From a virus: 45,756 nucleotides of DNA. The stretch lies in the IMG/VR virus record IMGVR_UViG_3300005253_000535, positions 1 through 45,756 of that record. The stretch is one strand, 5' to 3'. The notes beneath the pieces are model-generated. The model worked only from the letters and a program-made list of their open reading frames with translations, made no database searches and was not told the DNA's origin. This document shows positions 336 through 45,145 of this stretch, piece after piece. The stretch's first letter is position 1. Every line of letters starts with the position of its first letter. Position numbers and translations under genes: made by a program.

Positions 336-371
336 TTGACACACGCGTATGGCTGTGAGAGTATACGCGTA
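336..371 (+). promoter_or_regulatory. Operator-controlled promoter of the ParB-like gene
   Basis: A -35 box TTGACA (336-341) is 17 bp from a -10-like GAGTAT (359-364). Two operator copies are present: CACGCGTA at 342-349, directly after the -35, and TACGCGTA at 364-371, over the expected transcription start. Their starts are 22 bp apart, two helical turns. The next gene starts at 420, giving a leader of about 50 nt with a GGGAGGA ribosome-binding site. Confidence 0.7.
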
Positions 372-419
372 TGAACGGACAGGGGGTTTGGTTCACTCCC
401 TTGAAGGGAGGACGGCGGG

Positions 420-1298
420 ATGAAGATTAAGCTAGCCGACTTGAAGGTCGACCCGACGGTCAACATCCGCGACAGGCTAGATGGGGACACGGTAGAGAAG
501 TACGAGTCGATCTTCGAGATACTTCCGCCCATCCTGGTCTTCCGCATCAACGGCAACTACCTCTTGGCCGACGGATTTCACCGCTATCAGGCTGCCGATA
601 ACCTCGGCAAGCTAGAGATTGAGGCAGAGGTACGCGAGGGCACGCTAGAGGACGCCCAAGAGGCCAATATCCGAGAGAATGCCGCCCATCATGGCCTGAG
701 TCTCAAGGTGGCCGAGCAGGCGCGGGCTATTGACTGGTTCGTCGAACACCGTAGCGACTGGACCGATCAGCAGATAGCGGAGGCGGTAGGGGCACCCAAG
801 TCAACGGTACACAATCATCGGCGTGCTCTGCTTTCCGGAAAGCAAGCCTCCGTAAACCTCCCGCAGCGCTATGCGCGGCAGCTCCACGACGTGCCGGCGC
901 CGGAAGCCCAGAAGCTAGCCAACTTGCAGCAAGAGAAGAAATGGACGCCAGAGGAGACACGCATGGCGGCCAGGGCTGTGAAAAACCCAAAGACGGATCC
1001 ACTCTACCGCTCTGCCCTTCTGGCGGGTGCAGCGCCCCCCGTAAAAGTTCAGGAGGACGGGACGCACTCGGTTCTCGTTGGGCCAGTTCAGAAGGAGATC
1101 GCTGCCCGGAAGAAAGGCGACGTTCTCTATCAATTGCTAACCGCCCTAAGCGCGGTCGCCCGTTTCCAAGCTGCCTTCACAGTAAAGGACATCAAGCGGG
1201 ATGTCTCGACGAAGCAGGCAGCGGACATCATGTTAACGCTGCCGAGCCAAGTGGCTTTCTTGGCGGCCATTGAGAAGGCGCTGCGCGATGATCGATGA
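420..1298 (+). CDS. ParB/KorB-like DNA-binding protein (candidate global repressor)
   Basis: A 292-residue protein with a ParB/Spo0J N-terminal domain: the conserved box DGFHRYQAA at residues 51-59, then a helix-turn-helix around 112-136 (TDQQIAEAVGAPKSTVHNH). Members of this family bind palindromic sites, either as centromere proteins or, like KorB of plasmid RK2, as repressors of many promoters. No ParA partner is seen nearby, so partition is less likely. The gene is first behind a promoter that carries two TACGCGTA-type operators, so I infer autoregulation and a genome-wide repressor role; this is inference. A ParB-type nuclease or a replication accessory role is the alternative. The ATG at 420 has GGGAGGA about 8 nt upstream. 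Confidence 0.75.
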   Translation: MKIKLADLKVDPTVNIRDRLDGDTVEKYESIFEILPPILVFRINGNYLLADGFHRYQAADNLGKLEIEAEVREGTLEDAQEANIRENAAHHGLSLKVAEQARAIDWFVEHRSDWTDQQIAEAVGAPKSTVHNHRRALLSGKQASVNLPQRYARQLHDVPAPEAQKLANLQQEKKWTPEETRMAARAVKNPKTDPLYRSALLAGAAPPVKVQEDGTHSVLVGPVQKEIAARKKGDVLYQLLTALSAVARFQAAFTVKDIKRDVSTKQAADIMLTLPSQVAFLAAIEKALRDDR

Positions 1299-1743
1299 GG
1301 CCCTAGAACTGGCGATTAGCCATGCAGTGAATGGCCCCGATGAGCGGGGATGCACGACGGCTGCTGCCGCGAAGGTTGTCCTGGTGAATGACTATCCAGA
1401 AGTTCTTGCCGCCTGTAACGTGCACCCTTTCCTGCGGGTGGCCGTGTTCAAGCTCTTTCAGAAGTTCGTTTATGAGTGGCTGACAGACCCCAAGAAAAGC
1501 CGACTCCTTGGGTGTGTTGACGGCAAGAAACGTTGGCTACCAGCCTTTGCGTATTACCGCGAGGACGGGACCTGTTACTGGCGGCGAGCGGCCGCCCTAG
1601 AAAAGCGACATCTCCAGGCTATCGACCTGGAAGGGGACAAGGACATCAGGAGCCGAATGATCACCGGTGACGTGCGGAAGGAACTGATCGCGGTGATGCC
1701 CGATGATCACACGACGCTTGGAGAAGTGGTCAGCTTCTCCTAG
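1288..1743 (+). CDS. Hypothetical protein, 151 aa
   Basis: The start ATG at 1288 overlaps the 3' end of the ParB-like gene by 11 nt, with GAGAAGG upstream, so the two are probably translationally coupled. The product is a soluble mixed-charge protein with an aromatic centre (FKLFQKFVYEWL) and many Arg/Lys residues in the middle. I do not recognise a family. Its position suggests a partner of the DNA-binding protein or an early takeover protein. Confidence 0.7.
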   Translation: MIDEALELAISHAVNGPDERGCTTAAAAKVVLVNDYPEVLAACNVHPFLRVAVFKLFQKFVYEWLTDPKKSRLLGCVDGKKRWLPAFAYYREDGTCYWRRAAALEKRHLQAIDLEGDKDIRSRMITGDVRKELIAVMPDDHTTLGEVVSFS

Positions 1744-1755
1744 CTGAAGGGCAAC

Positions 1756-1965
1756 ATGAAAGGGCTTCTCTACTTTGCCCCGCAACTGGCCTTCGCGCTG
1801 GGGTTTAGCCTGCACTTTGCGCCCTGGCGGGGGCACGTCCACCTCGACCTGCATCTCCCCCTCGGCATCCTCATCATCGGGACCTGGGAGCACACGGAGG
1901 ACGACCTCGTTCCCATCGAGCATGTGTCGAGGCGGTCGAGCCGCCGCACAGGTATTAGGAGGTAG
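1756..1965 (+). CDS. Small putative membrane protein, 69 aa
   Basis: The ATG at 1756 follows GAAGGG. The first 25 residues and residues 35-43 (GILIIGTW) are hydrophobic, so one or two membrane segments are possible; the C-terminus is basic (SRRSSRRTGIRR). The gene fits exactly between its neighbours, ending 2 nt before the next start. No family is recognised. Overlapping frames are open too, so this one is less certain than its neighbours. Confidence 0.5.
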   Translation: MKGLLYFAPQLAFALGFSLHFAPWRGHVHLDLHLPLGILIIGTWEHTEDDLVPIEHVSRRSSRRTGIRR

Positions 1966-3721: not shown

Positions 3722-4032
3722 CCTACCTCATCTGGTCCGCCCTCGCCTCCACTGCTGTCATCTCCCTAGAGTTCCTGTTCCGGCGGGGGCTCGTGTGGCA
3801 GGACAATCTCATCTGGCTGATACCTGCGGCAGTGGTAGCGAACTACCTCATCTACCGGCTGGTGACGACGGCGCCGACCTACGTGCTGGCCTTTGCCGCC
3901 TTCCAGCTAACGAATCTGACACTAAGGACGGGCCTCTCCCACTTTGTCCTGGACGAGCCCATCAAGAAGGGGAGTCTGGTGGCCGTGGTCGCTCTGGCTG
4001 CGGCGATAGGGATTGGAAATGCGTGGAAATGA
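3718..4032 (+). CDS. Membrane protein, 104 aa, 3-4 transmembrane segments
   Basis: The ATG at 3718 overlaps the previous stop (ATGA). Hydrophobic segments lie at about residues 3-20, 28-43, 50-68 and 85-101. The size and topology would fit a small inner-membrane protein such as an exclusion protein or a holin, but the early-operon position argues against a lysis role. No family is recognised. Confidence 0.65.
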   Translation: MTYLIWSALASTAVISLEFLFRRGLVWQDNLIWLIPAAVVANYLIYRLVTTAPTYVLAFAAFQLTNLTLRTGLSHFVLDEPIKKGSLVAVVALAAAIGIGNAWK

Positions 4033-4771
4033 GCCCGCCGTTGGCTCCCTGTTCTCCGGTATCGGTGGCCTCGACCTCGGCCTTGAACGAGCGGGGTGGG
4101 AAGTCAAGTGGCAGGTAGAGATAGACGAATGGTGCCGGCGGGTACTCACGAAACACTGGCCCGATGTTCCGAAGTACGGGGACGTGCGGGAGCTGTCGGG
4201 GGCCGACCTTGAGCCCGTCGACCTCATCGCGGGTGGATTCCCCTGCCAACCTGTTTCGCTTGCGGGTAGACGGAAAGCTCAGGCCGATTCGCGTTGGCTC
4301 TGGCCGGAGTTCCTACGCATCGTGTCTGAAGTACGACCCCGCCTCGTCCTCGTGGAGAACGTACCCGGGCTCCTCCATCGGGGCATGGCCGAGGTCCTCG
4401 GTGGTCTTTCCTCGTGCGGGTACGATGCTGAATGGGGTTGCTTATCGGCGGCCGATGTCGGTGCGCCGCACCTCCGGCAACGGGTCTTTGTCGTGGCCCA
4501 CGCCCAAGGGCTCACCGGACAAGATGGGAAGACCGAGACCCAACGACAGGGGGGACTTGCAGGCAGCGGTGGCACCTACCCCGACAGCGAACCGTTGGTC
4601 GGGACTCCAGTCCCACGGGAAGAACGCCATCCTTGGACAACTGAACCCGACGTGGGTCGAGTGGCTTATGGGGTTCCCCAGCGGGTGGACAGACTTAGAG
4701 GACTCGGAAACGCCGTCGTCCCCCAAGTCGCGGAGTGGATAGGGGAAAGGCTCATTGAAACGTGGAAGTAG
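4019..4771 (+). CDS. dcm: DNA (cytosine-5) methyltransferase
   Basis: Transfers a methyl group from S-adenosylmethionine to cytosine C5 in DNA. Motif I FSGIGGLDLG (residues 12-21), catalytic motif IV GGFPCQ (Cys76), motif VI ENV (113-115), motif VIII RQRVFVVAH (153-161) and motif X GLGNAVVPQ (228-236) are all present. At 250 residues it is short: only about 65 residues lie between motifs VIII and X, so the target-recognition domain is minimal. An upstream in-frame TTG at 4013 is an alternative start. The +1-shifted frame over 4164-4742 is also protein-like (separate entry). The likely role is to protect phage DNA from host restriction. Confidence 0.9.
   Translation: MRGNEPAVGSLFSGIGGLDLGLERAGWEVKWQVEIDEWCRRVLTKHWPDVPKYGDVRELSGADLEPVDLIAGGFPCQPVSLAGRRKAQADSRWLWPEFLRIVSEVRPRLVLVENVPGLLHRGMAEVLGGLSSCGYDAEWGCLSAADVGAPHLRQRVFVVAHAQGLTGQDGKTETQRQGGLAGSGGTYPDSEPLVGTPVPREERHPWTTEPDVGRVAYGVPQRVDRLRGLGNAVVPQVAEWIGERLIETWK
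4164..4742 (+). CDS. Overprinted ORF inside dcm, matching the variable C-terminal region seen with phage cytosine methyltransferases
   Basis: This frame lies wholly inside dcm, shifted +1, and reads 192 residues. From about residue 48 it shows a pattern I recognise from phage methyltransferase-associated proteins: ASCLKYDPASSSWRT, WPRSSVVFPRAGTMLNG, SWPTPKGS, PTPTANRWSGLQSHG and LNPTWVEWLMGFPSGWTDL. The last block uses the same bases that encode the PDVGRVAYGVPQRVDRL block of the methyltransferase. Whether it is expressed by internal initiation, by a +1 frameshift, or is only a conserved shadow cannot be decided here; the start is unknown and the first 47 residues look non-native. Confidence 0.4.
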   Translation: MFRSTGTCGSCRGPTLSPSTSSRVDSPANLFRLRVDGKLRPIRVGSGRSSYASCLKYDPASSSWRTYPGSSIGAWPRSSVVFPRAGTMLNGVAYRRPMSVRRTSGNGSLSWPTPKGSPDKMGRPRPNDRGDLQAAVAPTPTANRWSGLQSHGKNAILGQLNPTWVEWLMGFPSGWTDLEDSETPSSPKSRSG

Positions 4772-5804: not shown

Positions 5805-6203
5805 ATGTTCGCCACCATCATCAGCCGCGCCCTGTTCTACTACGCCTTCCATGCCGGCGCCGCCGACCCGGAGGACGTAGCCCAGGACGTCATCGTCAAC
5901 CTGCTCAAGCGCCCGCACTGGGTCAGGAGCAACATGACTAGCTATCTGCGGGTGGCGGCTCGTAATCAGATATACGGCCAGCAGCGAACCGAGAGCGCGC
6001 CTTCGTCCCTCAACGTCGACTGGTTGCCAGCGCCAGACCCGCCGGATGATGACGCGGTCGACGCTGTCAGCCGCCTGACGGGAGAGTACCCCGATTTGGT
6101 GGCTTGGCTTATCGACTACTCAGAGAGGGCCAGCTACGGGGTGACGGATCGGGTGCGGGCTAGTCGAAGCCGGCGGAAGTTACGGGAGGTATTAGCGACA
6201 TGA
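5805..6203 (+). CDS. Sigma-70 region-2-like protein, 132 aa
   Basis: Residues 18-60 match sigma region 2: DPEDVAQDVIVNLLKR followed by TSYLRVAARNQIYGQQR, the helix pair that binds core RNA polymerase and the -10 element. The rest is short, with a Pro/Asp linker and a basic C-terminal helix (SRSRRKLREVLAT) in place of a full region 4. It could be a phage sigma factor that redirects host polymerase, or a DNA-binding protein that reuses the fold. Its stop overlaps the nuclease start. It lies outside the late operon, as expected for a regulator made early. Confidence 0.6.
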   Translation: MFATIISRALFYYAFHAGAADPEDVAQDVIVNLLKRPHWVRSNMTSYLRVAARNQIYGQQRTESAPSSLNVDWLPAPDPPDDDAVDAVSRLTGEYPDLVAWLIDYSERASYGVTDRVRASRSRRKLREVLAT

Positions 6204-9638: not shown

Positions 9639-10505
9639 CTAGCCGAATGCTTGCCGTTGCGCTTCGCGCAGGTCCTCGATGTCGGGATGAGCATACGTTC
9701 GGAGCATCTCAAAAAGAGTCTTCGGGCTCCAGCCGGCCAGGTATCCGATGGAGGCCGGGTTGGTCCGGCTCCTGACGTGCGCGGTAGCCCAGGTGTGCCG
9801 GAAGCGGTGAGCGCCCAGCGGGAAGCCCACTTGGAGCCCGCGCCTCCGCAGCATTTGGCGCAGGGAGTCACGCGTGAGGGGCATCCCGTCCACCGAGAGG
9901 AAGACGTGATCGGAATAGCCGTGGAGGAGGGCGGGACGTCCCCGGCCAACGTAGACTGCGAGAGTCTGCGGACAGGGGGCGACCAGCGGAACCTTTCGCC
10001 GAGCGTACCGACTCTTCCCTCCGCGGACGTAGACGGCATCCTCCCTCTCCAGCAAGTCATCGAGCAAGAGGTTACACGCTTCCGAGGCCCTCAGCCCACA
10101 GTAGCGAAGGAGGGAGACGACGGCGTGATCCCGCAGGCCGGTAGGAGTCCGGTCAGCCCTGAGCAGTTGGAAGAGGGCCTTCATCTGGCCCTCCGTGTAG
10201 ATGACCTTCGGCGCGGTGTCGCCTCGGGGCTTCCGCATAGCGCCCACCAGTTCCTCCCGCTCGATCCCGCGCAGGAACACGCGCATGGACGTGTAGATGG
10301 TGCGGCAGGACGCTGGCGAGTGCCCCTTCCCGTACTCGCGGAAGAAGGTGTGGAAGGTGGTCGGAGTCAGCTCTTGGCCGTCCAGCCACAGAAGGAAGAC
10401 GTGGACGTGGTCGCGGTAGGTCGTGAGGGTAGCGGGACGCAGCCCTTCCGACTCGCGGAGGGCAAGCCATTCCTCCACCGCTTGTTGCAGCGCTTCCTTG
10501 TCCAT
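9639..10505 (-). CDS. int: Tyrosine recombinase (phage integrase)
   Basis: 288 residues. N-terminal core-binding domain with the SAM-like helices (residues 5-90), then the catalytic domain with Arg139 (YCGLRASEA), Lys164 (GGKSR), His233 and Arg236 (HRFRHTWAT), Trp259 and the nucleophile Tyr271. It inserts the phage circle into the host chromosome. The ATG at 10505 has GGAGGGA upstream. The start faces a tRNA-Pro 3' half 70 bp away, which I take as attP. It runs convergent to the early operon and divergent from the ERCC4-type gene. No excisionase gene is recognised. Confidence 0.93.
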   Translation of the reverse strand: MDKEALQQAVEEWLALRESEGLRPATLTTYRDHVHVFLLWLDGQELTPTTFHTFFREYGKGHSPASCRTIYTSMRVFLRGIEREELVGAMRKPRGDTAPKVIYTEGQMKALFQLLRADRTPTGLRDHAVVSLLRYCGLRASEACNLLLDDLLEREDAVYVRGGKSRYARRKVPLVAPCPQTLAVYVGRGRPALLHGYSDHVFLSVDGMPLTRDSLRQMLRRRGLQVGFPLGAHRFRHTWATAHVRSRTNPASIGYLAGWSPKTLFEMLRTYAHPDIEDLREAQRQAFG

Positions 10506-10541
10506 CGCGTTCCCTCCCCGCCATGTGTGCGGTCGCCCCTA

Positions 10542-10572
10542 TTGACGCAGATACGCACAACAGCGTTACAAT
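10542..10572 (+). promoter_or_regulatory. Possible plus-strand promoter next to attP
   Basis: TTGACG (10542-10547) and TACAAT (10567-10572) are separated by 19 bp, longer than usual. The spacer holds a degenerate operator half (ATACGC). It would read through attP toward the ERCC4-type gene in the circle and into the host chromosome in the prophage. Weak support because of the spacing. Confidence 0.3.
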
Positions 10573-10574
10573 GG

Positions 10575-10619
10575 CTGGGGGTCAAGAGGTCGCCGGTTCG
10601 AATCCGGCCGCCCCGACCA
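10575..10619 (+). other. Putative attP core: 3' half of a tRNA-Pro gene, anticodon loop to CCA
   Basis: From 10575 the bases read as an anticodon loop CTGGGGG, the 3' strand of the anticodon stem TCAAG, a variable loop AGGTC, a complete T-arm (GCCGG stem, TTCGAAT loop, CCGGC stem, 10592-10608), the acceptor 3' strand CGCCCCG, discriminator A and CCA. The 5' half of a tRNA is absent. GGG in the loop and the C1-type acceptor point to tRNA-Pro(GGG). It is 70 bp from the integrase start. Tyrosine integrases commonly use tRNA 3' ends, so insertion here would rebuild an intact host tRNA. Confidence 0.85.
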
Positions 10620-10667
10620 CTACCCCTTCCCCTATCTGAGTCATTCCTATCTCGTACTCGGCCCATT

Positions 10668-10687
10668 ACCGGAAGGATAATTCCGGT
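10668..10687. repeat. Inverted repeat near attP
   Basis: Perfect 7-bp arms ACCGGAA and TTCCGGT flank a 6-bp spacer GGATAA. No T-run follows on either strand, so a terminator is unlikely. Position 50 bp from the attP core suggests an arm-type integrase or excision-factor site, or an operator for the gene at 10790. Confidence 0.5.
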
Positions 10688-10789
10688 TTCGCGGCTAATA
10701 AGCGGTTGCAGCGGCGAACAAGTGGGCTGCGCCGTCGTCATCTTAGGGGTGGGGGATGGCTGTGTCAATGGGGGGCCACCGTGCTGACG

Positions 10790-19779: not shown

Positions 19780-20247
19780 TTACGTTGCGAGCGTGTCAGC
19801 GCCAGTCTTGCGACCGTACAACTGCTTCTCACCCGAGCCGAGGTACGCGTAGAGCTTGGCCGCCGTAGCGTTGTTGGCGACCGCGTTGCCGGTCGGGATG
19901 ATGTTCACACGCACGTCGATGCTGGCCGCCGCGTACTCCTGCGGGTTGAAGTCCTTGGAGACGTCTATGACCTGCTGGCCGTCGAAGCCGGACGAGCCAT
20001 CCAGCATGAAGACGTGCTCTGCGACTACCCTCCGCGTGGTGTTGTCGTCCAGGGTTAGCTGGAGCTGGACTTGGATCGTGCCGGTGTCAGTGCCGGGGAG
20101 GGCGCCGGTATCCAGACCGACGATGAACTGGGTGCCCGCAGGCAACCCGCCCTTCCCGAGGTTGACCCAGCTACCGACGACGGCCAAGCCGTTGGCCTGC
20201 TCGTCGAAGGCTGTGTTGTAGAGTTCCAGGTTTGCGTCTAGTACCAC
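19780..20247 (-). CDS. Bbp16-like capsid (cement) protein, 155 aa
   Basis: GTG start with GAGGAGG upstream. The N-terminus (VLDANLELYNTAF) and the following VGSWVNLGKGG..GT pattern resemble Bbp16 of Bordetella phage BPP-1 and related podoviruses, a small beta-rich protein that follows the major capsid gene. It probably decorates or stabilises the shell. It carries one in-frame copy of TACGCGTA (19844-19851), which I treat as chance. Confidence 0.7.
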   Translation of the reverse strand: MVLDANLELYNTAFDEQANGLAVVGSWVNLGKGGLPAGTQFIVGLDTGALPGTDTGTIQVQLQLTLDDNTTRRVVAEHVFMLDGSSGFDGQQVIDVSKDFNPQEYAAASIDVRVNIIPTGNAVANNATAAKLYAYLGSGEKQLYGRKTGADTLAT

Positions 20248-20261
20248 TTCACTCCTCCTCT

Positions 20262-21245
20262 CTACGTTATGTCGAGGCCCTGTACCGAGGACAGAGCGAA
20301 CTTCTGCGGGATGAGGAAGCCGATAGGCCAGGTGACGTCGACGATGAACTGGCCCGGGTCGGCCGGGTTGAGGCCCACACGCGTCACTCTCAGCGGGTGA
20401 AGCTGGAGGAGCCTGACACCCTCGCTAGCCTCTAGGGACAGGAAGTACATCGGGGTCGAGGAGGCGTTACCGAAGATGTCGGTCTGCGCGTCGTCGCCGA
20501 TGACTTGCCCAGCCGCACTGGAGTCGAGGATGTTGGCTGGCTTCTGTCCCGCGTTGAGGAACTTGACACCGCCGTACTGCATGATGACCCGGTCGAACTG
20601 ATCGCGGGTCGTGTCAAGCGTCTTCAGGGTTCGCTGGGCTGCTCGGAACGCCCGCCAGGTTTGGCGGTTGACGATGCAGATGTCGGGCTTGCCGCCACCG
20701 CAAAGCTCAATGGCCTCGTCGATGTAGTTCAGCCACGACAGCCGGTTGGCGTCGTTGGCATCGACATCCAGCGCACCAGCATTGACGCCCTGATCCAAGA
20801 AGAGGGCATCGCTCGCTAGGCGCTGGAAGAGGCCAGCAGGCTGGGTGGGGTCGGAACCGGGATCCCCGTTGATGAGGAGATCGTTGACCGTGTTCCGCAC
20901 GACGGCGGAGTAGGTCTTGATCTGGAGGGTTAGGGGATCCTGGATGTACGTTTTGACATCGAGCAAGACCTTGTCGATCTGGATCTTGTTCTCGATGATC
21001 TTCAGCGTCTCGGTGCCGGTTGTGAACTTGGCGTTGTAAGCAGCGACCGCTTCGTTGATGTTCCTGGTACTCGGGGCTCCGGCGTCGGAGAGGCGCGAGA
21101 CTTGCTGGCTCAACGCGTTGGCGTTGCCCAACGGCAGGAAGTCCATCGGTGACGGGAGAACACCCTTGAACATGGCCATGATGATGGCCTTCTTCAGGGG
21201 TTTCTGCTCAATGGCTGCCACGTCCAGCATATTTAGTGCGGCCAT
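20262..21245 (-). CDS. Major capsid protein (HK97 fold)
   Basis: 327 residues with the layout of small podovirus-like HK97 capsid proteins: a helical N-arm, a spine helix region around 95-130 (LLDVKTYIQDPLTLQIKTYSAVV), the P-domain with NDLLINGDPGSDP and DICIVNRQTWRAFRAAQR, and an A-domain-like C-terminus (YFLSLEASEGVRLLQLHPL). The scaffold gene is directly upstream and a Bbp16-like gene directly downstream, the expected order. ATG with AAGGAG upstream. Confidence 0.9.
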   Translation of the reverse strand: MAALNMLDVAAIEQKPLKKAIIMAMFKGVLPSPMDFLPLGNANALSQQVSRLSDAGAPSTRNINEAVAAYNAKFTTGTETLKIIENKIQIDKVLLDVKTYIQDPLTLQIKTYSAVVRNTVNDLLINGDPGSDPTQPAGLFQRLASDALFLDQGVNAGALDVDANDANRLSWLNYIDEAIELCGGGKPDICIVNRQTWRAFRAAQRTLKTLDTTRDQFDRVIMQYGGVKFLNAGQKPANILDSSAAGQVIGDDAQTDIFGNASSTPMYFLSLEASEGVRLLQLHPLRVTRVGLNPADPGQFIVDVTWPIGFLIPQKFALSSVQGLDIT

Positions 21246-21262
21246 GGGCTATCTCCTTGGGG

Positions 21263-22066
21263 TTATTCTTCGATGTCTAGGGCGCCCTCTATGCCTTTCC
21301 GCAGGAGGGCTCCTATGTCGTCACCTTCCGCGCCTTCCTCAGCGGTTCCCCCGGGAAGAACTCCCACCTTGTCGCCCTTGGCAGAATTGCCAGTGGCAGC
21401 GTTACGAGCCGCCTGCTCTGCCGCGCTCACGGCTGCGTCAGACTCCGCTTTGGGGCCAGCAGCCTTGAGGTCGGCGAGCTTCTGGATCGCGTCCACAAGG
21501 GGTATGTCGTCTAGGGCCTTCACCTCTTCGGGCTTCATGGCCTTCAACGTGTCTCCGTACACCGCCTGTATGACGCCGGCCATTCGAGCGTTGACGCCCT
21601 CTTCGGCAGCGGCATCTACGGCCTGCTGTCGTTCGGCGCCCTCAATAGCTCGGGCAGCCAACGCTGCGAGCGGTGCCGGGTCCCCATCATCCCGGAAGGC
21701 TTTCAGCGCCTCTTCCCGGGTGGCGAGATCCTTCTTGGTGGTCTCTTCGCTTTCTCTCTTCTGGTCGGCATCGGCGACGGCTCCCTTGAGGAGCTCGTCG
21801 AGGGCCGATGGTGCCGGGCCTTCCTTGCCCTTCCGCGCTTCTACGATCCGCGGGTCGTCGGCGAGAGCAGCGATCTGCTCGTCGGACAGTTCCGGGACCT
21901 CTACGGTCTCCTCGGACTTCTCCTCATCGCCCTTGTCCTCCCCCTTCTCCTCGTCCTTCTTCTCGGAGGTAGCTTCCTCCTCGTCGACCTTGAGGGTCGA
22001 ACTCAGGTTCTCCTCGTCTACGTCAGCCGTTTTCTTCTCGTCATTGTCCGTCTTAACGTCGGGCAT
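21263..22066 (-). CDS. Capsid scaffolding protein
   Basis: 267 residues. Residues 1-60 are an extremely acidic, low-complexity stretch (EEATSEKKDEEKGEDKGDEE), the rest is helical and Ala-rich, without cysteine. That composition and the position immediately upstream of the major capsid gene are typical of scaffolds. ATG at 22066 with AAGGAGG 6 nt upstream. It is the first gene behind the operator-controlled minus promoter at 22.1 kb, so capsid genes can be expressed independently of the long upstream transcript. Confidence 0.85.
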   Translation of the reverse strand: MPDVKTDNDEKKTADVDEENLSSTLKVDEEEATSEKKDEEKGEDKGDEEKSEETVEVPELSDEQIAALADDPRIVEARKGKEGPAPSALDELLKGAVADADQKRESEETTKKDLATREEALKAFRDDGDPAPLAALAARAIEGAERQQAVDAAAEEGVNARMAGVIQAVYGDTLKAMKPEEVKALDDIPLVDAIQKLADLKAAGPKAESDAAVSAAEQAARNAATGNSAKGDKVGVLPGGTAEEGAEGDDIGALLRKGIEGALDIEE

Positions 22067-22091: not shown

Positions 22092-22120
22092 AGCGTAAGG
22101 CTTACGCGTATAGTTGTCAA
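22092..22120 (-). promoter_or_regulatory. Operator-controlled promoter of the capsid genes
   Basis: On the minus strand TTGACA (22115-22120) is 17 bp from TACGCT (22092-22097). Operator TACGCGTA lies in the spacer at 22103-22110, 4 bp from the -35, and a second exact copy at 22124-22131 lies just upstream, 21 bp away. It drives the scaffold and capsid genes. Confidence 0.75.
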
Positions 22121-22136
22121 GCATACGCGTAGGGGG

Positions 22137-22165
22137 TTGACAGAGGGGGGCAGCAGGACTAGGCT
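22137..22165 (+). promoter_or_regulatory. Promoter of the plus-strand membrane gene at 22172 (leaderless)
   Basis: TTGACA (22137-22142), 17 bp, TAGGCT (22160-22165). Exactly 6 nt separate the -10 from the ATG, so transcription probably starts at or next to the initiation codon. The operator copy at 22124-22131 lies between this promoter and the divergent capsid promoter and could control both. Confidence 0.7.
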
Positions 22166-22171
22166 GGGGCC

Positions 22172-22360
22172 ATGATTGGGCCAGCAGAGATAGTCCTGTT
22201 CGTGCTGTGGGCAGCCGTCGTGTGGCTCACGGTTCGGACAGCAATTCGCCGCGGGCGTCGGCCGCTCCTCTGGGGTATGCTGGGCGCTGTGCTGGGTGTC
22301 TTCGCCCTCGTAGCGGTAGCTGTCCTACCCCGTCAGCGACGCGACGCGTTCCTGCACTGA
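22172..22360 (+). CDS. Two-helix membrane protein, 62 aa, alone on the plus strand within the virion operon
   Basis: Two hydrophobic segments (about 5-22 and 33-52) joined by a basic loop (RTAIRRGRRP), with a charged C-terminus. It has its own sigma70-type promoter, no leader and no Shine-Dalgarno. The 3' end overlaps the convergent 1398-residue gene by 36 nt. A separately expressed gene against the direction of the late operon looks like a moron, for example a superinfection-exclusion protein made in the lysogen; a holin is the alternative. Function is not shown by sequence. Confidence 0.65.
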   Translation: MIGPAEIVLFVLWAAVVWLTVRTAIRRGRRPLLWGMLGAVLGVFALVAVAVLPRQRRDAFLH

Positions 22361-35180: not shown

Positions 35181-35474
35181 CTACAGTGCCTCCTCGATAC
35201 TTTTCCGCCATCTTGAAGGTAGCATATTACGCGTAAGGAGGTCAAGGATTACGCGTTGGGTCGCCGTAGGGTCGAGAGCTGTCTCCTCGCTGAGGGCAAA
35301 TGCCTGCGCTCTCAGCATCCGCTGGAGATCGCCGTGGGAGAACGAAGCTACGGATACCCGGCCGCCGAACGCGGCAAGGACGACGAAAATGCGGTCGCCC
35401 CCGGGATCCGACCAGAAGCGGAGGGCGTGGGTTTGGAGCCCGCCGAGAGCCTTGGCGTAGTCCGGCGGAGGCAG
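35181..35474 (-). CDS. Hypothetical protein with no standard start codon, 97+ aa
   Basis: A clear protein frame (LPPPDYAKALGGLQTHALRF, then GDRIFVVLAAFGG, then LSEETALDPT) ends at 35181. Upstream it stays open to a TAG within the previous gene, but contains no ATG, GTG or TTG before residue about 60. Coordinates here use a CTG at 35474. Alternatives are GTA at about 35493, or a -1 frameshift from the 63-residue gene upstream near its final AGGAAGGAAG. The TACGCGTA operators and the 35.2-kb promoter lie inside its 3' part. Confidence 0.5.
   Translation of the reverse strand: MPPPDYAKALGGLQTHALRFWSDPGGDRIFVVLAAFGGRVSVASFSHGDLQRMLRAQAFALSEETALDPTATQRVILDLLTRNMLPSRWRKSIEEAL
35216..35257 (-). promoter_or_regulatory. 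Operator-controlled internal promoter, 35.2 kb
   Basis: On the minus strand TTGACC (35240-35245) and TACCTT (35216-35221) are 18 bp apart. TACGCGTA lies in the spacer (35228-35235), 4 bp from the -35, and TACGCGTT at 35250-35257 just upstream, 22 bp away. It is embedded in a coding region and would drive the structural gene starting at 35179. Confidence 0.6.
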
Positions 35475-35742: not shown

Positions 35743-35781
35743 ATTGTACCGAGAACGCGTAAGGTTGTCAAGTTACGCGTA
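35743..35781 (-). promoter_or_regulatory. Operator-controlled late promoter of the virion operon
   Basis: On the minus strand TTGACA (35766-35771), 17 bp, TACAAT (35743-35748). Operators: AACGCGTA at 35754-35761 in the spacer and TACGCGTA at 35774-35781 just upstream, 20 bp apart. A third degenerate half (TGCGTA) is at 35787. The -35, operator, -10 and following hairpin all closely match those at 41.05 kb. Confidence 0.85.
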
Positions 35782-36394: not shown

Positions 36395-36481
36395 TGGTGG
36401 AGGCGGTCGGAGTTGAACCGACGTCTGCCAGAGCTGCGGGAGATGCCGCTTCTACTTCTCCGGCACGAACCCGTCGCCCCC
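36395..36481 (-). ncRNA. tmRNA-like / tRNA-like RNA, 87 nt, with G3-U70 acceptor pair
   Basis: On the minus strand the 5' end GGGGGCG pairs with CGCCTCC at the 3' end in all seven positions, with a G-U pair at position 3, then discriminator A and CCA. G3-U70 plus A73 is the alanine identity set shared by tRNA-Ala and tmRNA. The T-arm is GTCGG, TTCAACT, CCGAC. After the acceptor comes GACGGG, as near the 5' end of tmRNAs, then a hairpin GTGCCG/CGGCAT with a 12-nt loop. No anticodon arm with a U33 loop can be drawn, and no mRNA-like domain fits. A promoter lies directly upstream. Confidence 0.6.
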
Positions 36482-36883: not shown

Positions 36884-36994
36884 TACGCGTTATACGTGGG
36901 GAGCAAACGCGTTGCCCATTCTATCGCCAAACGGCCTACGCGGGGTTGACACGTCATACGCGTGGGCCTAACATAGACTTGACGGTTACGCGTA
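36884..36994 (+). promoter_or_regulatory. Operator cluster and rightward early promoter
   Basis: TTGACA (36946-36951), 17 bp, TAACAT (36969-36974). Five operator-like sites: TACGCGTT 36884-36891, AACGCGTT 36906-36913, TACGCG 36937-36942, TACGCGTG 36957-36964 (in the spacer, 5 bp from the -35) and TACGCGTA 36987-36994 (downstream of the start). Spacings are 22, 31, 20 and 30 bp. This is the densest cluster in the genome and faces the long early operon. Confidence 0.8.
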
Positions 36995-38669: not shown

Positions 38670-39809
38670 ATGAAGATTCGAATACTGTCCGAGAACCTGA
38701 CTGCCGCTGTCACCGAGGCAGCGCGGGCAACGGCCAAGCGGGGACACGTGCCCCAAGCCGAGAACGTCCTGCTAGAAACCGTAGAGGGTAGGTTACGTGT
38801 CACCGGCACCGACCTAGAGACGGCGATCGCTGTCTACTCCGGCGCCCAAGTCGAGGAAGAGGGGCGGGCGCTAGTCAAGCCGGGGATGCTGGCCCGTATG
38901 CTCGGCACGTTCGACGGGGCCGCTATCGACATCGAGCCTGACGGCGAGCATGGGCTGGCGCTGTCCTCAGACGGGCGCGCCTTCAAGCTGGACGGCATGG
39001 ACCCGGAGGACTACCCGCCTGTACCCGAGACGCCCGAACACCTAGCGGACATTGACCCGCTGATCCTGCGCCGGGCACTGGTCCGGGTGCTTGATTGTGT
39101 GGCTACGGATGGGCTAAGGCCTGTCCTGGGCGCTGTCAATTTCGCCGTGGCTGACACGTTGACGCTGGCTGCGGCTGATGGCTTCCGGCTGGGCGTGGTG
39201 GATACAGGCTGGAACGTTAGCCCGGACTTCCCTGAGATGAACGTGCCGGCGCGGACGTGCCGGGAACTGCTGCGCCTACTCCCGAAGAAGGCGAAGGATG
39301 CCGACGCCAGCGATCCCGTTCAGCTCCACGTCAAGAGGCGTGACGATGGCGTGCCTATCCAACTGCGCTTCGCTCTCAAACGCCAGGACGTGACGACGAT
39401 GCTGGTGCAAGGGACGTTCCCGAACTACACCCAGCTTATCCCAGCCACGCATGAGGCATCCGTCACCGTAGACACGCGGGCGCTACGCCGGGAACTACAG
39501 GCGGCGTCTGTCCTAGCTGCACAGTCTAGCGGGATCGTGCGGTTCAACTTCTCCCCGCCGGGCCGGTTCGAGATACACGCCCGCGCAGAGGAAGAGGGCA
39601 CATTCGAGGCCATGATACCGGCGAAGGTGGAGGGCGAGGGCAAGATCGCTCTCAACTGGGCCCACGTCGATACCTTCCTGAAGACTGTCGGCACCGACGC
39701 CGTAGAGCTTCGCATCACCGACCCAGCCCGACCGGGCCTGTTCCTGCCTGTGGGCGAAGAGGGCTACCAATTCGTCTGCATGCCGATGTTCGTCAGGTGG
39801 GACGACTAA
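38670..39809 (+). CDS. dnaN: DNA polymerase sliding clamp (beta subunit)
   Basis: 379 residues, full length for DnaN. All three clamp domains are visible: GTDLETAIAVYSG (50-60 region), FKLDGMDPEDYPPVPE ending domain 1, RPVLGAVNF and TLAAADGFRLG in domain 2, QGTFPNYTQLIP opening domain 3, and the C-terminal hydrophobic-pocket tail MPMFVRW. It encircles DNA and tethers the polymerase; phage-encoded bacterial-type clamps are uncommon. The partner is presumably the family A polymerase at 42648. The GAQVEEEG stretch and the tail remind me of Chloroflexota clamps, from memory only. Confidence 0.93.
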   Translation: MKIRILSENLTAAVTEAARATAKRGHVPQAENVLLETVEGRLRVTGTDLETAIAVYSGAQVEEEGRALVKPGMLARMLGTFDGAAIDIEPDGEHGLALSSDGRAFKLDGMDPEDYPPVPETPEHLADIDPLILRRALVRVLDCVATDGLRPVLGAVNFAVADTLTLAAADGFRLGVVDTGWNVSPDFPEMNVPARTCRELLRLLPKKAKDADASDPVQLHVKRRDDGVPIQLRFALKRQDVTTMLVQGTFPNYTQLIPATHEASVTVDTRALRRELQAASVLAAQSSGIVRFNFSPPGRFEIHARAEEEGTFEAMIPAKVEGEGKIALNWAHVDTFLKTVGTDAVELRITDPARPGLFLPVGEEGYQFVCMPMFVRWDD

Positions 39810-40039
39810 TGCCCTGGATACCCACGCCCAACGGTGGCCCCGGCTACACCTGTACTCACCCCGATTGCGGGTATGTCACGGACGGGGATCCGGCGGACAT
39901 CGGCCGGCACCGGCTGGAACACTTGGCGCAGGTGTTGGAACAGGGCGTCCCGCTCACCCCGCCCGTTGCCATCGAACAGGCGGAAGCGATACTGCGCGAG
40001 GACTTGGAGCGGGCGCGGAAGCTATGGTATCCGTCGTGA
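39809..40039 (+). CDS. Zinc-finger-like protein, 76 aa
   Basis: TAATG coupling to dnaN. The N-terminus reads YTCTHPDCGYVTDGDPADIGRHRLEHL, a CxxxxC...HxxxxH arrangement like a C2H2 finger; a helical C-terminus follows. Its coupling to the clamp gene suggests a replication accessory role. Confidence 0.7.
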   Translation: MPWIPTPNGGPGYTCTHPDCGYVTDGDPADIGRHRLEHLAQVLEQGVPLTPPVAIEQAEAILREDLERARKLWYPS

Positions 40040-40618: not shown

Positions 40619-41027
40619 CTCCTCCCCCTCAGCCCTCGCCCAGCTCGTCGTAAAGCAAGGGAAGACTGCTCACCCCGCATTGACGCCCACGCGGGGGCTG
40701 CTGGCGTTCAGGCGCTTGGAGAACTGGAGTCTCAACTACCTTGCCGACTCCTTCACGGGCATGCCCGAGAACTACAAGAGGGCGCCGAGCCTACCCTCCC
40801 GGATGAAGGCTAGCCTCCGTCGCATCGCTGCCCTAGCGCGGGCCAACCCCCGCGGTCGAGGAGAGGCGGGCCTCCCCCGCCTCGACGGGGTGCTGGTCCC
40901 GGCCGGCGACTGGAAGGCCGTGCTGGGCGGAATTGTAGTGCATACCCTCAAGGGACGGGACGGCTACGTCCTCGTGCTCGTCGAGGGAGAGCTAGACACC
41001 CGACGACCTCTGAGTATACGCGTGTGA
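40608..41027 (+). CDS. Hypothetical protein, 139 aa
   Basis: Last gene of this early operon. Basic in the middle (PSRMKASLRRIAALARANPRGRG) and beta-rich at the end (GYVLVLVEGELDTRRPLSIRV). Its last codons overlap an operator copy (41017-41024), so the next promoter is embedded in its 3' end. No family is recognised. Confidence 0.65.
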   Translation: MPADSSPSALAQLVVKQGKTAHPALTPTRGLLAFRRLENWSLNYLADSFTGMPENYKRAPSLPSRMKASLRRIAALARANPRGRGEAGLPRLDGVLVPAGDWKAVLGGIVVHTLKGRDGYVLVLVEGELDTRRPLSIRV

Positions 41028-41066
41028 TACGCGTCCCTTGACAACGTTCACGCGTAGGGTTACAAT
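41017..41066 (+). promoter_or_regulatory. Operator-controlled promoter, 41.05 kb
   Basis: TTGACA (41038-41043), 17 bp, TACAAT (41061-41066). Operators TACGCGTG (41017-41024), TACGCGTC (41028-41035) and CACGCGTA (41049-41056, in the spacer) have starts 11 and 21 bp apart. The -35 through the hairpin downstream is nearly identical to the late promoter at 35.75 kb. Confidence 0.85.
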
Positions 41067-41100: not shown

Positions 41101-41184
41101 ATGACGGATAGGGGAATGGAGCATCAAATCTGTAACGGCGGCGCACCGTCACGCGTCATTGTACGGGCCATCTCGGGAGACTGA
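41101..41184 (+). CDS. Possible 27-aa leader peptide
   Basis: ATG at 41101 right after the conserved hairpin, no Shine-Dalgarno, 28 codons, ending 3 nt before the next ATG. The frame contains an ACGCGT (41151-41156). It may be a leader peptide or only untranslated leader. Confidence 0.3.
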   Translation: MTDRGMEHQICNGGAPSRVIVRAISGD

Positions 41185-41187: not shown

Positions 41188-41391
41188 ATGTGGTTCCCGT
41201 GTGCTTACTGTCCGGCACGACTCCGTCGGGGGGATCGGGGGAACCTAGAGCATGCCGCCCAGCACTTCGGCCTAGATGCCGTCGCGGTCTACGTCCACCG
41301 GGAGCTTGAGCGCAAGGGCATGAGCGAGCTAGACGCCCACCTTACCGTGCAGGCTTTTCTTTCGCCTCGAACGGGCCGCCCGGTCTCCTGA
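41188..41391 (+). CDS. Small zinc-knuckle protein, 67 aa
   Basis: Begins WFPCAYCPARLRRGDRGNLEHAAQHF, a CxxC...HxxxxH arrangement like a C2H2 finger, followed by a helix (AVAVYVHRELERKGMSELDAH). The 3' end overlaps the convergent minus gene by 50 nt. A DNA-binding regulator is possible. Confidence 0.65.
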   Translation: MWFPCAYCPARLRRGDRGNLEHAAQHFGLDAVAVYVHRELERKGMSELDAHLTVQAFLSPRTGRPVS

Positions 41392-41737
41392 GATGGTCGA
41401 TGGAATGAGGCTTACCATCAGCCCCCACGTACTTCCAGACCGGCCACATCGTCGTGTGGTAGCCCAGCACGATGTCACACATCCCGTTGCTGGACGGGGA
41501 CGGCCAGCGCTTCCCTTCTACCTCGATAGACTTGTCCTCGAAGAGGGCGCCCTCGACCTTGCGCCCCAGCTTCTTCGACATGAAGTAGACGGGCAATGGG
41601 AAGACTACGTTCCCGAGTGGCGCTGTCTTCCCGCTGAGCAGGTCGTCGAGGATGACCTGGAGGATGCGATCCTTGTCCCTCGCCATCGGCGCCTGTTGCG
41701 CCGCGCGTATCATGGTGAGTATGTATTCGTCCGCCAT
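41342..41737 (-). CDS. Hypothetical protein, 131 aa, lone minus-strand gene
   Basis: ATG at 41737 with AGGGAG 9 nt upstream; an earlier in-frame ATG at 41746 has the same AGGGAG directly abutting it and so is less likely. Mixed alpha/beta, no clear motif (ILQVILDDLLSGKTAPLGNVVFPLPVYF). It runs against the early operon, with its own promoter, so it may be expressed in another phase such as lysogeny. Confidence 0.65.
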   Translation of the reverse strand: MADEYILTMIRAAQQAPMARDKDRILQVILDDLLSGKTAPLGNVVFPLPVYFMSKKLGRKVEGALFEDKSIEVEGKRWPSPSSNGMCDIVLGYHTTMWPVWKYVGADGKPHSIDHLRRPGGPFEAKEKPAR

Positions 41738-41772
41738 TTCCCTCATCTCCCTCTAGTAACGGTTCCGCCCCT

Positions 41773-41832
41773 ATTCTCCCCCCGTATGGCGCATGTGTCA
41801 ACACCTATAACGCGTAAAGAACACGTTAATAT
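41773..41832. promoter_or_regulatory. Divergent promoter region with one operator
   Basis: Minus strand: TTGACA (41796-41801), 17 bp, GAGAAT (41773-41778), for the gene at 41737. Plus strand: a -10 TAATAT (41827-41832) exactly 6 nt before the ATG at 41839; its -35 is poor (CCTATA at 41804-41809). Operator AACGCGTA (41809-41816) lies between them. Confidence 0.6.
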
Positions 41833-41838: not shown

Positions 41839-42402
41839 ATGTTAACCTTCGTTCCGCCTTGGATACCGGACAATCCGCTTCTCGCCGTCGTTGGGCAGAG
41901 CCCGGGGCCTGTGGAGGCCCGACGCAGTCGCCCCTTCGTGGGGCCGGCGGGGGAACAGCAGCGGGCGTGGCTACGCGCGGTTAAACTGGATCCTGATGAG
42001 GACGTGATGTGGACGAATGTTCATGCGTATTTCCATAGCGATGCGCCCAACTACAAGCCGACGGCGAAGGAGGCACGAGAGGGCTACGACCGCGTGAGGG
42101 GGGAGATTGGAACCGCGCCCTCCGTCGCCTGCGTCCTGCTTGTCGGGGGGCCAGCGTCGCACATGGTCTTCCGTGGGAACATGGGCCAGATGCACGGGAG
42201 GCAAGCGGAGGTCGCGGGTGTGCCCGTGTTCAGCATGTACCATCCTTCGTTCTACATCCGCCAACACTCGTTCAAGAAGAGGGCGGAGATTGAGGGCCAG
42301 GTGATGGACGTGCTCGCCCGCGTCGTCGAGGTCATCAAGGGGAAGGCACCCGAGTTGGAGTTGCCCGAGCCGGAGTATGTCGAAAGCGTGACGATATGCT
42401 AG
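41839..42402 (+). CDS. Uracil-DNA glycosylase-like protein (family 4/5 type)
   Basis: 187 residues. The N-terminal motif GQSPGPVEARRSRPFVGPAG (about 19-38) matches the GExPGxxEDxxGxPFVGxAG signature, TNVHAYFHSDAPNYKPT matches the substrate-loop region, and MYHPSFYI gives the HPS motif. The four cysteines that hold the Fe-S cluster in family 4 are missing. Relatives remove uracil from DNA, or act in phages as replication or host-defence factors. Probably leaderless (see promoter). Confidence 0.85.
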   Translation: MLTFVPPWIPDNPLLAVVGQSPGPVEARRSRPFVGPAGEQQRAWLRAVKLDPDEDVMWTNVHAYFHSDAPNYKPTAKEAREGYDRVRGEIGTAPSVACVLLVGGPASHMVFRGNMGQMHGRQAEVAGVPVFSMYHPSFYIRQHSFKKRAEIEGQVMDVLARVVEVIKGKAPELELPEPEYVESVTIC

Positions 42403-42473: not shown

Positions 42474-42682
42474 TCCACTACTTCAGGATCGGGAGCGGCT
42501 CGTTCTGGCGGGGCATCCTGCTCTACCTGCGTTGGCAAGTTCTCCGCTGGCTGTGGCAATGCCAAGAGCCAGACTGTGAACACTACTTCACCTATAGCTC
42601 ACGCACCTCGGCCCGCGAGTGGCACAAGATGGTCCACGAGTATCTGAGTGGCTTACACACTCGACAGTCCTTGCGCCCTTGA
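42470..42682 (+). CDS. Hypothetical protein, 70 aa
   Basis: Coupled by ATGA to the previous peptide, with AGGGAGG upstream. Aromatic and basic N-terminal half (YFRIGSGSFWRGILLYLRWQVLRWLWQ), then CQEPDCEHYF with H residues, a possible zinc finger. Overlaps the polymerase start by 35 nt. Confidence 0.55.
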   Translation: MIHYFRIGSGSFWRGILLYLRWQVLRWLWQCQEPDCEHYFTYSSRTSAREWHKMVHEYLSGLHTRQSLRP

Positions 42683-45002
42683 CGTAGAGACCACGGGCGT
42701 CAAGCGGGAGGACACCGCCGACCCACGCCGAGCCTCTTTCGTGTGCGCTGCTGTGGCTCCTCACGGCATCGTCACTTTCAACCCCCCTGACGTAAGGCCG
42801 GGGGCTAGCGTGACGGTCCATAACATGCCCTACGACGCCGTAGTCCTCGATCGCTGGGATGCCAACTGGGATGACACGAAGATTCTCGCCCACATCGGGG
42901 GACACCCGGATACCACGCTGAAGGGGCTGCAAACGAGGCTGCTGGGCCGGCCCGCTCTCCACCACGACGAGGCTGAGGAGAGGGGGCAGGTCCCCGAGTA
43001 CAACCTGTACGACGCCATCAACACCTGGGATCTCCGCCCCGTCCTCTACGATGGGCTGAGGCCCGAGACACGCAGGCTCTACGACACCCTTGAGAGGCCG
43101 CTGCTACCCCTGTGGGCCAAGATGACGATGGAGGGGTGCCTTGCTCTGGGAACCAAAATACTCAAGGCTAACCTCTCTTGGCAGGAGATTCAAGATGTCG
43201 AGGTCGGCGACGAGGTAGTCGGGTTCGATGAGTTCCAGCAGAAGGGCGAACGCTATCGTAAACTGCGCCGCTCTCGTGTGCTTGCTGTAACACCAAGCAT
43301 TGCGGAGTGCTTCGAGGTCGTCACCGATAGGGGAACCGTTACGTGTACCAGCAACCACCGCTGGCTGATTACCGACAGTCACCCGGCGGACCGCCTTTGG
43401 CGGCGCACCGACCAACTGAAGCTAGGACACTACTTGCGCTGGTTGTCCCCGCCGACAGCGCCCCGCACGGACTGGACTGCTGGATACCTTGCCGGGGCTT
43501 TCGACGGAGAAGGCTGTGCTGCACCGTCCATTATCGTGTTTACACAACGCATCAATCCAATGCTAGACCTCGTCCTGGCGGCGCTGCACGAGGAGAACTT
43601 CCGTGTTCGCGCTGTTCAACGCCTGCGTAAGCGCGACGACACCGTGGGGGTATGGGTTAAGGGCGGACTGCCCGAGCAAATCCGGTTCTTTGCCCGCTTC
43701 CGTCCCCAACGCCTGCGTATACCGTGGGAGGGCATGGCTGGTGGTCGGACAGGTACTCGTGCCCGAGTTATCGCAATACGGCCACTGGGCCGACTGCCTG
43801 TGTGGGACCTGACTACGACAACTGCGACATTCATAGCTGCGGGGTTCTATTCCCATAACAGCTTCAACCTCGACAAGCCCGCACTCCAAGCCTACAGGAC
43901 GGCACTGGCTGAGGATACGGAGGGGGTGCTGACTAAGGCTGAGGCCCTGCTACCGCGGGGCCGAGTCGTCTCCCGCTGTAAGAAGTGCGAGCTGCTACGT
44001 GAGCGGATGGAGACGGGGCAGAGGTGCGAGGACGGGAAGAACCACTCGTGGGATACCAAGTTCGAGGCCGACCTGGCCCTCAACCTTAACTCGCCCGAGC
44101 AGCTCCTTGCGGCGTTCACCGACATGGGCCTGGGCGTCAAGGATACGGGGGTCGACACGATAAGGCTCGTCGCCCACCGGCACCCGGGAGTCCGCGCCCT
44201 TCTCGACTATCGCACCCTGCACAAGGAACTGTCCACCTACGTCGAGCCGTTCCTCCGCATTGCTGAGAGTGGGCGGAGGCTCGGCGCCGTCTGGCGGCCG
44301 ACCGGGGCCTGGACGGGGCGTGTCTCATCCGCATACCCCAACCTCCAGAACATCCCCGCAGACCTGTGGCGGTTCTTCCTGCCTCCCTTCGTCGTCGCCG
44401 ACAACGCCCAGCTAGAGATCCGCGTCGCTGCTCACATCAGCCAGGATCCCCAGTTGATGGCTGCCTGCCAGGGCGACATCCATGCTGAGATGCAGATACT
44501 CTATGGCCTGCCGGCGGGCAGTGAGGGTCGGCGCGCCACCAAGGTCGGGACGTTCGGCACCATGTACCTCGGTGGGCCAGCAGTCATGCTCCAGAAGGCG
44601 CAAGAGTATGGCGTGCCGATGACCTGGAAGGATGCAGAGCGTCTGCAAGGGGTCGTCATGGCTAGGATGCCCGACTACTTCCGCTGGGCCTGGAGTATCG
44701 CTGACGAGCGGGTCGTCGACGGCCTGTTCGGCCGCGTGCATCACATCCCCCTCGGCATGGACGAGGGGCACATGGGTCGGGAGGCTGTCAACGCCCCCAT
44801 CCAGGGGGGTGCCGCGGACATCTGCAAGTTCCAGATGTTGGCCCTGCATCGGGCTGGCTACAAGGTCGTCGCCCAAGTGCATGACTCCGTCGTCGTGGAG
44901 GTGGGGGAGAGCGACCTGGCGGATGCACGGGTGGAGGTGCCACGTATAATGGAGGGGGCTGCGCCAGAGTTGGACGTGCCTATCAAGGTGGAGGCGAAAT
45001 GA
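42648..45002 (+). CDS. polA: Family A DNA polymerase with an in-frame intein
   Basis: 784-residue precursor; 543 residues after splicing. Residues 10-135 are a short 3'-5' exonuclease domain with LDVETTG (Exo I) and VHNMPYDAVVLDRW (Exo II). The polymerase part has GAWTGRVSSAYPNLQNIP, motif A ADNAQLEIR, motif B GRRATKVGTFGTMYLG (the residue aligned with E. coli Phe762 is Phe) and motif C QVHDSVVVEV. It likely replicates the genome with the phage clamp and the RecA-fold helicase. GTG start. The intein is listed separately. Confidence 0.93.
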   Translation: MAYTLDSPCALDVETTGVKREDTADPRRASFVCAAVAPHGIVTFNPPDVRPGASVTVHNMPYDAVVLDRWDANWDDTKILAHIGGHPDTTLKGLQTRLLGRPALHHDEAEERGQVPEYNLYDAINTWDLRPVLYDGLRPETRRLYDTLERPLLPLWAKMTMEGCLALGTKILKANLSWQEIQDVEVGDEVVGFDEFQQKGERYRKLRRSRVLAVTPSIAECFEVVTDRGTVTCTSNHRWLITDSHPADRLWRRTDQLKLGHYLRWLSPPTAPRTDWTAGYLAGAFDGEGCAAPSIIVFTQRINPMLDLVLAALHEENFRVRAVQRLRKRDDTVGVWVKGGLPEQIRFFARFRPQRLRIPWEGMAGGRTGTRARVIAIRPLGRLPVWDLTTTTATFIAAGFYSHNSFNLDKPALQAYRTALAEDTEGVLTKAEALLPRGRVVSRCKKCELLRERMETGQRCEDGKNHSWDTKFEADLALNLNSPEQLLAAFTDMGLGVKDTGVDTIRLVAHRHPGVRALLDYRTLHKELSTYVEPFLRIAESGRRLGAVWRPTGAWTGRVSSAYPNLQNIPADLWRFFLPPFVVADNAQLEIRVAAHISQDPQLMAACQGDIHAEMQILYGLPAGSEGRRATKVGTFGTMYLGGPAVMLQKAQEYGVPMTWKDAERLQGVVMARMPDYFRWAWSIADERVVDGLFGRVHHIPLGMDEGHMGREAVNAPIQGGAADICKFQMLALHRAGYKVVAQVHDSVVVEVGESDLADARVEVPRIMEGAAPELDVPIKVEAK
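43137..43859 (+). mobile_element. Intein with LAGLIDADG-type motif in the polymerase
   Basis: 241 residues (164-404 of the precursor). Block A starts CLALGTKIL; block B is DRGTVTCTSNHRWL; the C-terminal blocks are VWDLTTTTATFIAAGFYSHN, and the next residue is Ser (+1 nucleophile). One LAGLIDADG motif, YLAGAFDGEGC, is visible, so the endonuclease is a single-motif type or is decaying. The insertion sits in the MTMEG | SFNLD sequence between exonuclease and polymerase domains, not at an active-site motif. Confidence 0.93.
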
Positions 45003-45142
45003 TGGAGAAGAGGACAGCGGGATGGCACAACCGTCAATGGCGCTGTCCTCACTGTGGAGACACGAACTTCATCGCGGCGTCGAACTGTAAGCGTTGCAAC
45101 ACCCGCCGCCCAACCTTGACGCGTAACCCACGCGTAGGGTAG
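44999..45142 (+). CDS. RanBP2-type zinc-finger microprotein, 47 aa
   Basis: ATG overlapping the polymerase stop (ATGATG). Almost the whole protein is one RanBP2-type finger: WRCPHCGDTNFIAASNCKRC, that is W-x-C-x2-C-x3-N-x6-C-x2-C. Such fingers bind single-stranded RNA or proteins. Its 3' end contains the next promoter and two operators. Confidence 0.75.
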   Translation: MMEKRTAGWHNRQWRCPHCGDTNFIAASNCKRCNTRRPTLTRNPRVG

Positions 45143-45145
45143 CGT
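45116..45145 (+). promoter_or_regulatory. Operator-controlled promoter of the replicative ATPase (leaderless)
   Basis: TTGACG (45116-45121), 18 bp, TAGCGT (45140-45145), then exactly 6 nt to the GTG at 45152. Operators GACGCGTA (45118-45125) and CACGCGTA (45129-45136) are 11 bp apart, one helical turn, and overlap the -35 and spacer. Confidence 0.7.

Follow-up and report, generated by a model that had tools for sequence, protein, structure and literature searches.

Phased palindromic sites at the promoters of a phage genome as candidate operators of a cooperative master repressor

Introduction

The virus record IMGVR_UViG_3300005253_000535 of IMG/VR, analysed here over its whole length of 45,756 nucleotides (the window), carries copies of one short palindrome, TACGCGTA, in or beside many of its promoters. 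This raises the question of which protein reads these sites, and to what end. A sequence-only reading of this DNA had proposed a genome-wide operator regulon built on the TACGCGTA-type site, and this proposal is supported by the position, density and helical phasing of the sites reported below. To our knowledge, gene control in phages of Chloroflexota, the very probable hosts of this temperate phage, has been little explored. The papers searched yielded no known regulator for the site sequence, and none of them names the site as a phage operator.

Enrichment and geometry of the sites

Exact copies of TACGCGTA occur seven times (at 364, 19844, 22103, 22124, 35228, 35774 and 36987), precisely where the sequence-only reading had placed them, against 0.22 expected, and none of 100 shuffles reached seven; with one mismatch allowed, 24 copies were found for 9.1 expected. 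The informative core is ACGCGT, present in 28 copies genome-wide (13.5 expected). In an unbiased ranking of all 6-mers by intergenic versus coding enrichment, CGCGTA came first (1.5e-17) and ACGCGT second (5.6e-13), the top 8-mers being ACGCGTAT, ACGCGTAA and TACGCGTA. The roughly 2.7 kb of intergenic DNA holds 19 cores, whereas 2000 shuffles, in which each intergenic stretch was shuffled separately, yielded 0.77 on average and never more than 5. Coding DNA is at chance level, with nine copies for 12.3 expected, so that coding copies, that at 19844 included, count as background. The intergenic excess is real and far beyond chance. Sites absent from the earlier list are the pair 36885/36907, the clear tandems 41018, 41029 and 45119/45130, and two degenerate partner sites, at 323 and 41821.

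The sites are palindromic, and almost all intergenic ones fall within promoter clusters, the sole exception being that at 41151. Neighbouring sites no more than 35 bp apart are spaced by 22, 21, 22, 20, 22, 30, 11, 21 and 11 bp; none of the nine departs by more than 1.5 bp from the length of one, two or three turns of the helix (p ~2e-4 if spacings were uniform), and shuffled sequence would be expected to hold about 0.01 phased pairs of this kind. When site centres are measured from the first T of TTGAC, 12 of the 19 intergenic sites lie at -9 to +15 of a TTGAC[ACG], compared with 2.7 expected (p ~5e-5). At five promoters the spacer site is centred at +13.5 or +14.5, 4-5 bp past the -35 hexamer, exactly the distance given earlier. 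Four of these five have a second site centred at -6.5 to -8.5, so that the -35 is bracketed, while for the spacer site at 36958 the sole partner upstream is degenerate. The promoters at 0.35, 36.95 and 45.1 kb carry their sites in the spacer and the start region, or across the -35. Clear information is confined to 8-10 bp round the core and comes to ~13 bits per site by our own sum, less than the ~15.5 bits needed for uniqueness in 45.6 kb. A single site is too weak to be unique in the genome, and pairing would therefore be needed for specificity. Judged from this anatomy, the bracketing of the -35 by paired sites is a repressor-operator layout.

A putative phage master repressor

We propose, with a probability of about 0.75, that the sites are operators of a cooperative phage master repressor serving immunity, timing control or both. 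A phage-encoded master transcription regulator, probably a symmetric dimer, would read the palindrome (core ACGCGT), and dimers separated by one, two or three turns of the helix would bind cooperatively on the same face of the DNA, as the phasing of the sites suggests. A dimer upstream of the -35 together with one in the spacer would exclude sigma70-type RNA polymerase, since the sites lie in the spacer or beside the -35 of near-consensus promoters; it is from this anatomy that we infer cooperative repression. The early, replication, ParB/recombination and capsid/structural units would be silenced, most likely for a silent prophage and superinfection immunity, with a use in timing also possible.

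The only clear helix-turn-helix (HTH) regulator among the phage proteins scanned is a ParB-family protein (420-1298, plus strand) made of a ParB N-domain and an HTH region. It matches phrog_1033 (3.6e-15), TIGR00180 (8.7e-11) and, by sequence and fold, ParB, Noc and KorB entries of the PDB; in its model (mean predicted local distance difference test score, pLDDT, 73.7) the N-domain and HTH region are confident and the C-terminus is poor. The promoter of its own gene carries two exact sites and one degenerate site. We therefore tentatively regard it as the best single candidate for the regulator, which would be autoregulated and work in the manner of KorB. The fuller proposal, that in an integrating phage a protein of this CTPase-fold family without an identified ParA partner acts as master immunity repressor, controls its own gene and reads helically phased pairs of 8-bp palindromes around -35 elements, is more of a conjecture and may well be wrong. 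If true, KorB would have a counterpart in a phage, with a lysogeny switch possibly tied to cytidine triphosphate; if the ParB-like protein is indeed the reader, a job would be assigned to one of the ParB-like proteins that occur on many phage contigs.

Several findings weigh against the proposed repressor or its identification with the ParB-family protein. No relatives of this phage with the same operators, in which conservation could be seen, were found in IMG/VR or among phage records. The portal promoter has no site, an exemption not expected of a switch that strictly turns everything off. ParB-family proteins usually recognise longer sites, of 13-16 bp. In 80 viral contigs that encode ParB relatives (28-39% identical), no ACGCGT clusters were present, and the search for phased palindrome pairs upstream of parB in these contigs returned none of the kind sought except one AGCGCT pair at chance level. 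These two absences are weak evidence against the ParB candidate, because a distantly related protein would be expected to recognise a different sequence, and many of the parB genes perhaps lie inside operons.

The same operators could be read by another phage protein, namely the orphan 134-amino-acid product of 41342-41746 (minus strand) or some other small protein that escaped recognition, for example the zinc-finger-like Cys/His protein at 41188-41391, a reading that we consider only a little less likely than the ParB-family protein. No other gene inside the rightward early region points leftward, which gives the orphan the position of a lysogeny gene, and the rest of the phage yielded no canonical CI/HTH repressor. 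The -35 of the orphan has sites upstream (centres -11.5 and ~-22.5), and in the opposing rightward promoter they lie in the spacer. In the lysogen, the orphan would be expressed from a promoter left unblocked by the operator, like PRM of lambda. Against it, the protein has no family match, searches of Chloroflexota genomes and viral contigs brought up no relatives, and its single-sequence model (pLDDT 49), too poor for a fold search, shows neither an HTH nor a ribbon-helix-helix. Two small proteins of the phage, that at 41188-41391 and another at 39809-40039, have the C2H2-like spacing C-x2/4-C-x13-H-x3-H. A host regulator borrowed by the phage would agree with the plain host sigma70-type promoters and with a reader not having been identified among the phage proteins. 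A scan for the bracketed operator pattern, as distinct from single sites, found it in none of 400 Chloroflexota genomes and in none of the five genomes with the matching attB; the system is for this reason taken to be specific to the phage and its reader most likely phage-encoded, and a host protein is improbable. What is left after the ParB-family protein, the orphan or another small protein and a host protein would fall to something unrecognised.

It is also conceivable, at rather long odds, that the sites serve an activator or a timing regulator instead of a repressor: at two promoters, 22137 (plus) and 41801 (minus), every site lies on the upstream side of the -35, from where an activator could touch RNA polymerase. 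Most promoters, however, have a site in the -35/-10 spacer or the start region, and near-consensus hexamers need no activator. ACGCGT is moreover the MluI word, in a GC-rich genome that encodes a C5-cytosine methylase (4019-4771), which might point to methylation, restriction or base composition as its source; yet coding copies are at chance, and the copies beyond chance occur at promoters alone and in helical phase. We consider an artefact of this kind scarcely credible, since the phasing and the restriction to intergenic DNA already refute it.

Comparison with known systems

In SPbeta, one element recurs at many promoters of a temperate phage under a single phage master repressor, MrpR, and was first found by sequence alone; this element, SPBRE, is 15 bp long, and MrpR is folded like a tyrosine recombinase but is no longer catalytic (PMC10516654). 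The present sites likewise form a repeated element at many promoters, for which one master regulator would be expected, but they are 8-10 bp palindromes in phased pairs. A catalysis-lost recombinase-fold repressor of the MrpR type was considered and rejected, as R, HxxRH and Y are all still present in the sole tyrosine recombinase found. The L5-type stoperators of Cluster A mycobacteriophages are asymmetric 13-mers, bound by a monomer and oriented with transcription; more than 20 of them are spread over the temperate genome, at promoters as well as in short gaps between genes, where they bring elongation to a halt (PMC9283540). Sites scattered over a temperate phage genome, promoters included, are common to both systems, whereas those described here are palindromic, paired and promoter-bound. 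The suggested likeness to mycobacteriophage stoperators is thus not borne out (PMC9283540), and an L5-type system is excluded by the palindromic core, the scant information past 8-10 bp and the location at promoters.

KorB, of the ParB family, is a global transcription regulator of IncP-1 and IncU plasmids (PMC7022226). The suggested likeness to KorB is plausible insofar as a ParB-family HTH gene lies behind an operator promoter in the phage too; it is weakened by the lack of sites in the 80 viral contigs with ParB relatives and by the absence of the KorB operator, since TTTAGCSGCTAAA and parS have only chance matches in the phage genome and TTTAGCSGCTAAA is not enriched. A further difference is that no ParA partner was identified in the phage. 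Among Chloroflexota ParB relatives the sites were not found; one pair, at 916/927 of L029, lies inside a ParA-like coding region. In a podovirus from Manatee Spring (MW202898.1) with a XerD-like recombinase, a lone ParB-like gene (19986-20816) is oriented opposite to its neighbours, a repressor-like position; no convincing repeated palindrome was seen there.

Scanning IMG/VR for the operator pattern returned 17 contigs, mostly by chance. One of them, L003/L002, carries ACGCGT-cored sites that flank TTGACA between divergent phage promoters as in the window, but the arrangement is a single divergent switch, in our reading that of a CI/LexA-like (S24/CI-type) repressor of another phage, and no gene is shared. 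It appears to be convergent use of the ACGCGT word. Phage and viral collections were searched for relatives by DNA, capsid, terminase, ParB, attP and the 134-amino-acid protein, and none that was useful turned up; capsid relatives in Chloroflexota genomes are ~30% identical, and the operator was not found at their loci. What is new is the paired, phased layout of palindromic octamers within a known kind of system. Paired octamers that bracket the -35 would be another way to build a multi-operator immunity system, the geometrically strict set of 19-odd operators is a ready target for repressor identification, and the operator map predicts which genes are silent in the prophage.

Predicted operator map of the genome

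As predicted from their positions, the sites cover nearly every transcription unit except those of the portal, small-RNA and integrase-side promoters. At 0.35 kb, the promoter of the ParB/recombination operon (TTGACA-17-GAGTAT, 336-364, plus) has one site in its spacer (343-348) and one in its start-site region (365-370), 22 bp apart; the degenerate site CCGCGT (323-328), 20 bp upstream of 343 and weak with its one core mismatch, would be the upstream bracket. At 22.1 kb, the promoter of the scaffold/major capsid operon (TTGACA-17-TACGCT, 22092-22120, minus) has a spacer site at 22104-22109 (+13.5). The site at 22125-22130 lies upstream of the -35 of both this promoter (-7.5) and the divergent one (-9.5; TTGACA-17-TAGGCT, 22137-22165, plus), which precedes a small gene for a 62-amino-acid protein with an apparently leaderless start at 22172.

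Leftward structural genes follow a promoter at 35.2 kb (TTGACC-18-TACCTT, 35216-35245, minus) with sites in the spacer (35229-35234, +13.5) and upstream of the -35 (35251-35256, -8.5). The promoter of a small gene at 35.75 kb (TTGACA-17-TACAAT, 35743-35771, minus) is similarly built, with sites at 35755-35760 (+13.5) and 35775-35780 (-6.5). For the rightward early operon (37011 onward), the promoter at 36.95 kb (TTGACA-17-TAACAT, 36946-36974, plus) has a spacer site (36958-36963, +14.5) and, 30 bp from it, a site in the start-site region (36988-36993). At 41.05 kb, the promoter TTGACA-17-TACAAT (41038-41066, plus) has a spacer site (41050-41055, +14.5), one just upstream of the -35 (41029-41034, -6.5) and, 11 bp from the latter, a third (41018-41023, -17.5).

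The divergent pair at 41.8 kb comprises the orphan's promoter (TTGACA, 41801, minus) and a plus-strand promoter (41804-41832) with an apparently leaderless ATG at 41839; the site between them (41810-41815), upstream of the -35 of the orphan, has a weak degenerate neighbour, ACACGT (41821-41826), at 11 bp. At 45.1 kb, the promoter of the AAA_25 helicase-like gene (6.8e-14; TTGACG-18-TAGCGT, 45116-45145, plus), whose GTG at 45152 is apparently leaderless, has one site overlapping the -35 (45119-45124) and one in the spacer (45130-45135), 11 bp apart. The start codons at 22172, 41839 and 45152 coincide with predicted transcription starts, and their mRNAs are likely leaderless.

Promoter-like sequences without a site precede the portal gene (30073, minus) and a small RNA (35964, minus), both of which the sequence-only reading had correctly described as site-free, and lie next to integrase and attP (10768, minus; 10542, plus). 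The same claim for a transfer-messenger RNA (tmRNA)-like RNA is less certain: the sites at 36885-36890 and 36907-36912, 22 bp apart, bracket a weak putative minus-strand promoter upstream of it (TTGCTC-16-TATGGT) at the usual geometry, and the RNA may therefore not be exempt from operator control. This RNA (36395-36481, minus) has an Rfam tmRNA match of 48.2 bits in 87 bases, with acceptor-like ends and no message part, and looks like a miniature tmRNA-like RNA; ARAGORN found nothing.

The phage and its host

The record has a 62% GC content and a 121-bp direct terminal repeat, because of which it is probably a complete genome of ~45.6 kb; the AAA_25 protein spans the junction of the repeat. 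No DNA relative was present among 50,697 phage records (24.9 kb compared). The phage encodes a major capsid protein (phrog_212), an amidase and a tail spike-like protein, as well as a beta clamp, PolA, a Rad52-like protein, UDG and the cytosine methylase. Its tyrosine integrase (9639-10505, minus; match 4.5e-22) has the catalytic residues in place, and the adjacent attP core (10577-10619) consists of 43 bp identical to the 3' part of tRNA-Pro(GGG). Among the genomes searched, this exact stretch occurs in five only, all of them Chloroflexi metagenome-assembled genomes and always at the end of a tRNA-Pro(GGG) gene. The intact integrase and this match indicate that the phage is very probably temperate with a host in Chloroflexota.

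A good promoter-like sequence, TTGACA-17-TAAGAT (10768, minus), lies within 10506-10780 across attP from the integrase gene. Integration would separate the two, and int may for this reason be transcribed chiefly while the phage is a free circle.

A short protein (5805-6203) has a weak match to sigma-70 region 2. At one end of contig L018, 301 bp (9825-10125) are 88% identical to 21118-21418 of the window and adjoin unrelated genes, including a UDG-PolA fusion, in DNA of 51% GC, possibly reflecting a mosaic phage or a chimeric assembly. Finally, PolA (42648-45002) is apparently interrupted by an intein, a Cys-initiated block at ~43140-43860 with a weak Hint match (0.0046).

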